Positions 34,065 through 35,271 of a stretch of DNA of 35,448 nucleotides are shown piece after piece. The position numbers and the translations under genes are program-made. Source of the stretch: an uncultured Bacilli bacterium (lineage in GTDB: Bacteria; Bacillota_I; Bacilli_A; RF39; UBA660); the NCBI GenBank assembly GCA_947627385.1, contig CANQVV010000006.1, forward strand, positions 1 to 35,448, read 5' to 3'. A model generated the notes under the pieces. It made no database searches. It was not told the origin of the DNA and worked only from the letters and a program-made list of their open reading frames with translations. Positions within the stretch are counted from its first letter, which is position 1, and every line of letters starts with the position of its first letter.

Positions 34065-34138
34065 GCCAAATTAGTTTAGTGGTAAAACAAGGCACTCGTA
34101 ATGCTTAGCCGTGAGTTCGATTCTCACATTTGGCACCA
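34065..34138 (+). tRNA. tRNA-Thr (CGT anticodon), CCA encoded
   Basis: Acceptor GCCAAAT/ATTTGGC; D arm GTTT-AAAC; anticodon arm AGGCA-CTCGTAA-TGCTT; T arm GTGAG-TTCGATT-CTCAC. Confidence 0.95.
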
Positions 34139-34186: not shown

Positions 34187-34213
34187 AAAACGACTTGTCA
34201 AAAAGTCGTTTTT
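34187..34213 (+). terminator. intrinsic terminator after tRNA-Thr
   Basis: aaaacgactt / aagtcgtttt, loop gtcaaa, T-run. Confidence 0.75.
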
Positions 34214-34223
34214 ATGTTATTAT
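34195..34223 (+). promoter_or_regulatory. promoter of the antisense RNA
   Basis: TTGTCA (34195-34200), 17 nt, TATTAT (34218-34223). Confidence 0.6.
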
Positions 34224-34229
34224 GAATAT

Positions 34230-34345
34230 GTCAAGGAAACTTGCATAAAATAAAAAAGGGAACATTCAGTTTTGCAAGTTGAATGTCTACCCAATTAATA
34301 TTGTTTAGACATTTAATTCATGTAAGAATTAAGTGTCATTTTTTT
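34230..34345 (+). ncRNA. putative type I antitoxin antisense RNA, about 115 nt
   Basis: Promoter above; terminator gacatttaattc (34308-34319) / gaattaagtgtc (34326-34337) + T7; convergent to and overlapping the toxin transcript. Confidence 0.55.
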
Positions 34346-34428
34346 ATAACTACTATCATAACGATAAGGAGAAATAAAATGATAGCAATGAGCTTTAGAA
34401 CTTTTATAACAAAAGTCTTAGTTTTCAT
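34336..34428 (-). CDS. 30-aa hydrophobic peptide, candidate type I toxin
   Basis: MKTKTFVIKVLKLIAIILFLLIVMIVVIKK*; SD gaggagg; not in the supplied ORF track. Confidence 0.65.
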   Translation of the reverse strand: MKTKTFVIKVLKLIAIILFLLIVMIVVIKK

Positions 34429-34493
34429 CTTTATCAAACCTCCTCTCTATAAGAGATTTGGTAGACACTCAACAACTAATATTCTCTACGAAA

Positions 34494-34522
34494 ATTATAT
34501 CAAACGATTGTTCTTTATACAA
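34494..34522 (-). promoter_or_regulatory. promoter of the 30-aa peptide transcript
   Basis: Minus strand TTGTAT (34522-34517), 17 nt, TATAAT (34499-34494). Confidence 0.6.
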
Positions 34523-35001: not shown

Positions 35002-35271
35002 GTGAAAGGAGGGAAAAATATCACGCTTCAAGAAGAAAGGCCTATTCTAATGTATGATCGAATATTTAAAACTATAATAGGGAATCATAAAGATCCTAAA
35101 ATCTTAGAATATGTCTTAAAAGATATATTAGAAGAAGAAGTCCATATAAAGGAATTTGTGAATACTAATTTAAAGGTAAGGAATAAAAATGAAAGAGTAA
35201 AAGTAACAGATTTGATAGTAACAAGTAGTAAAGGAAAAGAAATATTAGTTGAAGTGATAGTGCTAATATAA
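35002..35271 (+). pseudogene. Rpn-family nuclease/putative transposase, N-terminal part only
   Basis: RPILMYDRIFKTIIGNHKDPKILEYVLKDILEEE...RVKVTDLIVTSSKGKEILVEV; reading frame ends inside palindrome C. Confidence 0.7.

Follow-up and report, generated by a model that had tools for sequence, protein, structure and literature searches.

Type I toxins under LexA control are textbook knowledge from Escherichia coli, where tisB, dinQ and symE are the examples. These three E. coli genes are also the only ones for which SOS control is named in PMC6562991. The tisB/istR-1 and dinQ/agrB modules encode LexA-repressed, single-helix membrane toxins of 27–29 aa; the antitoxin RNA of tisB/istR-1 is not SOS-induced, and tisB has a sequestered Shine-Dalgarno (SD) sequence and needs a standby site (PMC8309996, PMC4147584). 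In the txpA/ratA, bsrG/SR4, bsrE/SR5 and yonT/SR6 modules of Bacillus subtilis, a convergent antisense RNA overlaps the 3′ end of the toxin mRNA and RNase III cleaves (PMC6562991), and the RNA I–RNA II pair of fst/par (Enterococcus faecalis pAD1) is likewise 3′-overlapping and encodes a short membrane peptide. In the aapA1/isoA1 module of Helicobacter pylori, a 30-aa toxin ending in two basic residues is encoded by an mRNA that rearranges its structure and is subject to antisense control and to RNase III (PMC8309996); an H. pylori toxin mRNA also forms metastable structures (PMC6733600). Two cationic C-terminal residues recur in AapA1, Fst, BsrG and LdrD (PMC8309996).

The locus described here shares likenesses with each of these systems. 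It lies beside a tRNA-Thr gene in the window, the whole 35,448-nt stretch of DNA that we analysed, and we consider it very probably an SOS-inducible type I toxin-antitoxin module (Table 1), for which we infer the toxicity of the peptide and the antitoxin action of the RNA. A preliminary description of this DNA had proposed a type I module, a claim supported by the conservation of both the peptide frame and the leader pairing in relatives. Beyond that description we found a LexA operator, a leader partner behind the stop codon, paralogues, and a systematic neighbourhood with tRNA genes.

Table 1. Features of the locus, in positions of the window
Feature	Position	Strand	Basis
tRNA-Thr (CGT), co-directional with the antisense RNA	34065..34138	plus	Rfam match
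Terminator-like hairpin after tRNA-Thr, includes the antisense -35	34187..34212	plus	scan; comparable hairpins in other copies next to tRNAs
Antisense promoter TTGTCA-N17-TATTAT, no LexA box	34195..34223	plus	promoter scan; 83/111 copies with -35 17 nt from -10
Antisense RNA 5′ hairpin ATGTCAAG-GAAA-CTTGCAT	34228..34246	plus	83.7% paired, little covariation
Antisense (putative antitoxin) RNA, about 115 nt, ends predicted	34230..34344	plus	covariance model R1 and pair counts
mRNA terminator, with leader-pairing arms at 34291-34281 (5′) and 34271-34258 (3′)	34258..34292	minus	own stem 88.1% paired
Antisense terminator stem, 12 bp then T7	34308..34337	plus	terminator scan; 94.8–95.0% paired on antisense strand vs 87.3% on mRNA strand
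Post-stop site GACACTT, first alternative leader partner	34331..34337	minus	97.6% of cells paired
Putative toxin ORF, 30-aa membrane peptide MKTKTFVIKVLKLIAIILFLLIVMIVVIKK	34336..34428	minus	sequence, hydropathy, pN/pS
SD-sequestering hairpin CAAATCTCTT/AGGAGGTTTG, SD AGGAGG 34444-34439	34435..34460	minus	predicted fold
mRNA leader, complementary to own mRNA 3′ end; GAGTGTC also complementary to post-stop site	34460..34486	minus	pair counts, folding
Toxin promoter TTGTAT-N17-TATAAT; -35 34522-34517, -10 34499-34494	34494..34522	minus	sequence; position and spacing kept in relatives
LexA operator GAACAATCGTTTG, one mismatch to RAACAWWTGTTYG, in toxin promoter spacer	34501..34513	minus	motif common to SOS genes

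The minus-strand ORF was read correctly in the preliminary description, as was the SD before its ATG; an in-frame TTG 9 nt upstream is a possible alternative start, and the stop codon is a TGA at 34338-34336. The locus thus has the small hydrophobic peptide gene expected of a type I module, the product combining a basic N-terminus, a single hydrophobic segment (Kyte-Doolittle maximum 3.38 over 17 residues) and a KK end. Non-synonymous changes are depleted in the frame (pN/pS 0.40 over 354 pairs), which indicates, at the level of sequence comparison, that purifying selection acts on the peptide. Matches to the peptide (E ≤ 0.1) occur in 88 of the 196 genomes of the family, and the variants, mostly 25–32 aa long, are basic at the start, contain one hydrophobic segment and often end in KK, with drift among the hydrophobic residues. 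An SOS-induced, antisense-controlled peptide of this kind could be not a toxin but a small membrane regulator, for example one delaying division or modulating a membrane enzyme during DNA repair; it has no family match, and its near-universal presence, with many copies per genome (often eight or more, the scoring being capped at eight), points to a role that is tolerated and perhaps one of housekeeping. We nevertheless regard such a regulator as unlikely, since size, the very hydrophobic segment and the two terminal lysines fit known type I toxins, drift among hydrophobic residues is expected for a membrane-disturbing peptide, and the layers of repression described below (LexA, SD hairpin, leader closure and antisense RNA) suit a harmful product.

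Both promoters of the preliminary description are in place, that of the antisense RNA being recovered by a promoter scan and having a TG before its -10. The toxin promoter is not listed by the scan because its -35 is weak (3/6). Promoter-like sites in the region are not enriched (5 vs 6.1 in shuffles) and terminator-like sites number 3 vs 0.1 expected. The case for the locus is built on comparison. The predicted toxin mRNA of about 236 nt runs on the minus strand from 34487 to 34252, and the convergent antisense unit overlaps its last ~100 nt, with full complementarity between the antisense RNA and the 3′ end of the mRNA. Opposite the toxin gene there is accordingly an antisense gene with its own promoter and terminator, a conserved unit with a covarying terminator and predicted transcription. 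The antisense terminator had been described correctly as to strand, place, 12 pairs and T7, but its stem, said to cover the stop codon, takes in two of the three bases; the terminator of the mRNA itself lies in the 3′ segment assigned to it. The 5′ hairpin of the antisense RNA is conserved in sequence, and the comparison no more than suggests its structure.

The spacer of the toxin promoter is palindromic. The strict GAACNNNNGTTY was rejected as the SOS box, its matches lying mostly in coding DNA and missing lexA, and a strict GAACN4GTTY search was uninformative in the window's own genome. The promoter of lexA, a gene whose product was confirmed as LexA, contains AAACATTTGTTTG, and reading it led to a looser box that works. 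The exact RAACAWWTGTTYG occurs at five sites in this genome, namely lexA, ruvB, a DNA modification/repair radical-SAM gene (TIGR03916) and two toxin copies on contig 23, and with one mismatch at the toxin promoter of the window, a Y-family DNA polymerase gene, an ORF6N gene and other places too. In four other genera the exact motif occurs 27 times and its reversed control twice: it marks lexA in all four, recA in three, and Y-family polymerase (DNA polymerase IV) and ORF6N genes in two each, adjoins priA and xerD-like genes, and lies in two toxin modules. recA was not found in the window's own 71%-complete genome but is present with the box in relatives. Within the toxin copies, RAACNWWNGTTY is exact at the same position in 21 of 53 (0.1% in shuffles), and in a wider set RAACN4GTTY stands in 37 of 96 toxin promoters, where the background of these loci predicts 0.36. 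A LexA box is absent from all 111 antisense promoters examined.

Judged by the sites that it shares with SOS genes, the toxin promoter carries a putative LexA operator and the antisense promoter has none, the same division as in tisB/istR-1. Counterpoints to an SOS-controlled type I module include the one mismatch in the window box and the lack of the box in some copies. Another motif is found in 23 of the 96 toxin promoters, and others have neither this motif nor a LexA box. This second promoter class has TGTTCGCTTGTTT near the -35 in place of the LexA box (L034, L036, L037, L059, L062, L063, L065, L069, L083 and others); all 18 exact occurrences of TGTTCGCTTGTTT in the searched loci (about 0.5 Mb, both strands) lie in toxin promoters, so that another regulator may act on this class. 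Genes for LexA and RNase III are both present.

The leader segment GAGTGTCTACC (34470-34460) and its complement GGTAGACATTC (34291-34281) had been located correctly, yet the pairing extends beyond the 11 bp given at the time and joins the whole leader (34486-34460) to both arms of the mRNA terminator (34292-34258). It is present in the predicted minimum free energy fold of the mRNA (-64.1 kcal/mol). In an alignment of 53 diverged copies (A1), the 24 pairs between leader and terminator arms are formed in 87.4% of cells, with 76 double-change cells vs 25.7 ± 3.9 in shuffles, and pairing falls to 36–51% when the register is slid. Cognate leader and 3′-end duplexes average -32.9 kcal/mol vs -19.8 kcal/mol for non-cognate ones; the leader is predicted to pair with the 3′ end in 51 of the 53 copies, at a mean probability of 0.80 vs 0.12 for shuffled leaders. 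The leader pairing first seen in the window is kept in relatives and covaries, and the mRNA has the long-distance 5′-3′ pairing of hok/AapA-type toxins. Helix 2 (GAGTGTCTACC/GGTAGACATTC) is 95.5% paired when read as mRNA vs 84.9% on the other strand, and helix 1 (leader/mRNA terminator) is 80.2% paired. The antisense terminator was scored on the antisense as well as the mRNA strand, because a C-A mismatch in the mRNA is a G-U pair in the antisense RNA; this G-U asymmetry, in helix 2 and in the antisense terminator, shows on which RNA each helix is selected. Pairing of the leader with the post-stop site has 45 double-change cells vs 12.3 in shuffles, and pairing with the 5′ arm of the antisense terminator, to which 7 nt of the leader are complementary, reaches 96.2%, but the three partner sites resemble one another and share a history, so that these counts are no proof that every one of the three pairings is in use.

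The SD and the start codon are predicted to be paired whether or not the 3′ end is there. The SD is unpaired with a mean probability of 0.16 over the 53 copies (0.16 with and 0.18 without the 3′ end), and the leader with 0.14 in the full mRNA vs 0.40 without its 3′ end. Simple 3′ trimming alone would consequently not free the SD, which leads us to favour a model in which the leader would serve as a ribosome standby site, as in tisB (PMC4147584). Covariation support for the SD hairpin (H7) is moderate, perhaps due to a shifting register of the partner. An SD within a 5′ hairpin is also a feature of fst/par.

How the antisense RNA and the leader divide the control of the toxin can be pictured in several ways within the SOS-inducible type I module. 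In aapA1/isoA1, the antisense IsoA1 is directed against the 5′ part of the transcript and so differs from the 3′-overlapping RNA of the window. One possibility that we find rather doubtful is a hok/AapA-like scheme, in which a stable pool of full-length mRNA is kept inert by 5′-3′ closure and activated by 3′ processing, the antisense RNA mainly recognising the processed form: the covarying 5′-3′ pairing does close the molecule, and the earlier-transcribed leader partner behind the stop codon resembles the metastable structures of H. pylori (PMC6733600), but it is the 3′ end, and not the 5′ region or start, that the antisense RNA complements, and the SD is predicted to stay paired without the 3′ end. 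A scheme of the TxpA/RatA kind, with the antisense RNA acting solely through a 3′ duplex destroyed by RNase III and the leader pairing just stabilising the mRNA, is plausible, if somewhat short of an even chance; convergent genes with overlap at the 3′ ends only, as in txpA/RatA (PMC6562991, PMC4147584), and the presence of an RNase III gene speak for it, whereas a leader that matches three partners, the antisense terminator arm (96.2%) among them, goes beyond what stability needs.

The antisense RNA contains a near copy of the leader, because the leader repeats the 3′ end of its mRNA in inverted orientation, and it would compete with the leader for this 3′ end. It also covers both leader partners on the mRNA, and its binding might therefore have the effect of opening the leader instead of closing it. 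We tentatively suggest an RNA switch in which toxin output after SOS induction would be set by the winning partner among three, the post-stop site, the arms of the mRNA terminator and the arm of the antisense terminator; as part of the same speculative proposal, the module would have spread through the whole order by landing preferentially at the 3′ ends of tRNA genes.

For the type I module as a whole, LexA would hold transcription of the toxin low against constitutive synthesis of the antisense RNA, and leaky mRNA would be silenced twice, by its own folding and by the antisense RNA. The SD would be held in its hairpin, the leader would close on the post-stop site during emergence of the RNA and afterwards on both terminator arms, and the antisense RNA would hybridise with the 3′ end to form a duplex that RNase III could cut. 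Upon DNA damage LexA would be cleaved and mRNA would come to exceed antisense RNA; in a portion of the mRNA the leader would open, for example by 3′ trimming, ribosomes would use it as a standby site for loading, and the peptide would enter the membrane and slow or stop the cell.

The window's own genome (1.16 Mb, 71% complete) contains at least three intact copies of the module, the one in the window and two in tandem on contig 23, and within the genus all but two of the 38 genomes (36) have a DNA-level match. The covariance model R1, built on the antisense unit, has matches in 292 of 386 genomes of the order (about three quarters) and in 94 of its 118 genera, often with at least eight copies per genome. 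In a sample of the class, all matches but one fell within the family of the window genome. Searches of phage and plasmid collections gave no match to the peptide or the DNA, an exact-pattern scan of viral contigs found nothing, and a search of the open literature found no publication on these modules, which is not proof of absence.

Where enough flanking sequence was available, a co-directional tRNA gene lies within 250 nt upstream of the antisense unit in 39 of 102 copies (about 38%), usually with a gap of 30–70 nt and with many isotypes; one tRNA is in the opposite orientation. Chance adjacency would be about 1% by our own order-of-magnitude estimate from about 35 tRNAs per 1.2 Mb, and on this comparison the tRNA-Thr beside the locus appears to be no accident. 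The many intergenic copies, the strong preference for tRNA 3′ ends and the existence of decayed copies (L026) would also be expected of a non-functional intergenic repeat with hairpins conserved for spreading and an unexpressed peptide, but purifying selection on the frame, a conserved SD and start, regulated promoters and the strand-specific G-U asymmetry of the RNA helices make such a repeat highly improbable.

Several copies and neighbours deviate from the intact arrangement. The lone antisense/toxin match outside the family (L204, in G617 of another family of the class) reflects either transfer or a misbinned contig. On contig 54 of the window's own genome (L026:780-960) fragments of the peptide gene and the antisense promoter remain of a decayed toxin copy. 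The antisense unit on contig 31 (L025:838-969; R1 E about 3e-13) has its promoter, hairpins and terminator but no recognisable toxin ORF, and possibly encodes an orphan antitoxin RNA. A toxin copy directly 3′ of a tRNA-Thr in G072 (L058:1322-1590) keeps the antisense terminator and seemingly lacks the mRNA 3′ end and the antisense promoter, so that its antisense RNA might come only from read-through of the tRNA. On contig 23 the toxin copies alternate with a second family of small hydrophobic peptides, MKAKSLNKLLLVIILILLYIIYTLIEKGVVQIIIQG (L024:1812-1919, 2522-2629), which occurs three further times on contig 7 (L135:2022-2815) of the same genome; its leader TGGACGTCACC is complementary to its 3′ end GGTGACGT, and it is possibly another type I module. 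In the window itself, a short ORF at 35002-35271, which we tentatively take to resemble a truncated fragment of the PD-(D/E)XK transposase family, lies beside repeats of the motifs TGTAGGAAAA and ATAAAAATGTCG where the contig ends.

If the reading as an SOS-inducible type I module is right, a large order of uncultured Bacilli from the gut has, in most of its genomes, an abundant, multi-copy and unannotated toxin-antitoxin family that is tied to the DNA-damage response. LexA control of an unrelated peptide, in combination with a 3′-overlap architecture like that of B. subtilis, suggests convergent wiring of membrane peptides to the SOS response. The covarying RNA makes the mechanism directly testable, and the operator motif could be used to delineate the SOS regulon of these uncultured bacteria.

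Searches for relatives of the locus in existing collections had little yield. Pfam, PHROGs and PADLOC profiles returned nothing relevant for the peptide, NCBIfam only weak transmembrane look-alikes far below the cut-off, and a PDB sequence search no match; in Rfam the tRNA was the sole match at the gathering score, and no toxin-antitoxin RNA appeared at E values up to 10. Specifically, neither an Fst-type peptide (Pfam, NCBIfam) nor an fst antisense RNA (Rfam) matched at E ≤ 10, and no Pfam, NCBIfam or Rfam match connected the peptide or the RNA with TxpA/RatA or BsrG/SR4. Fst/par and tisB were also compared by their defining features, and the absence of these features here, together with the absence of matches in Pfam, NCBIfam, PHROGs, PADLOC and Rfam, places the module, as far as sequence can tell, in no known family.

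With tisB/istR-1 the locus shares a short single-helix membrane peptide with a putative LexA operator in its promoter, an antisense promoter without a LexA box, the counterpart of an antitoxin that is not SOS-induced, and an SD predicted to be sequestered. It differs in that IstR-1 is encoded divergently and pairs with the tisB 5′ UTR, whereas the two RNAs here are convergent and overlap at the 3′ end; the 5′ UTR of the window mRNA is short, and no sequence relationship to tisB or dinQ was found. The 3′-3′ overlapping convergent pair of TxpA/RatA and BsrG/SR4 is present, but the B. subtilis peptides are unrelated by profile searches and a covarying closure of the leader on both terminator arms is not defining there. 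The likeness to Fst/par proposed in the preliminary description fails in detail: par has the direct repeats DRa and DRb in RNA I and RNA II (PMC4147584), while in this locus a single mRNA has its leader and 3′ end as inverted repeats, only 7 nt of the leader being complementary to the antisense RNA, at the 5′ arm of its terminator; a par-like direct-repeat pairing was rejected on sequence grounds. The aapA1/isoA1 module resembles the locus in the length of the toxin and its two basic terminal residues but has no sequence relationship to it. We know of no SOS box for aapA1/isoA1. By analogy, the module would work like tisB in its control, like txpA/ratA in the arrangement of its genes and like hok/aapA in the 5′-3′ closure of its mRNA.
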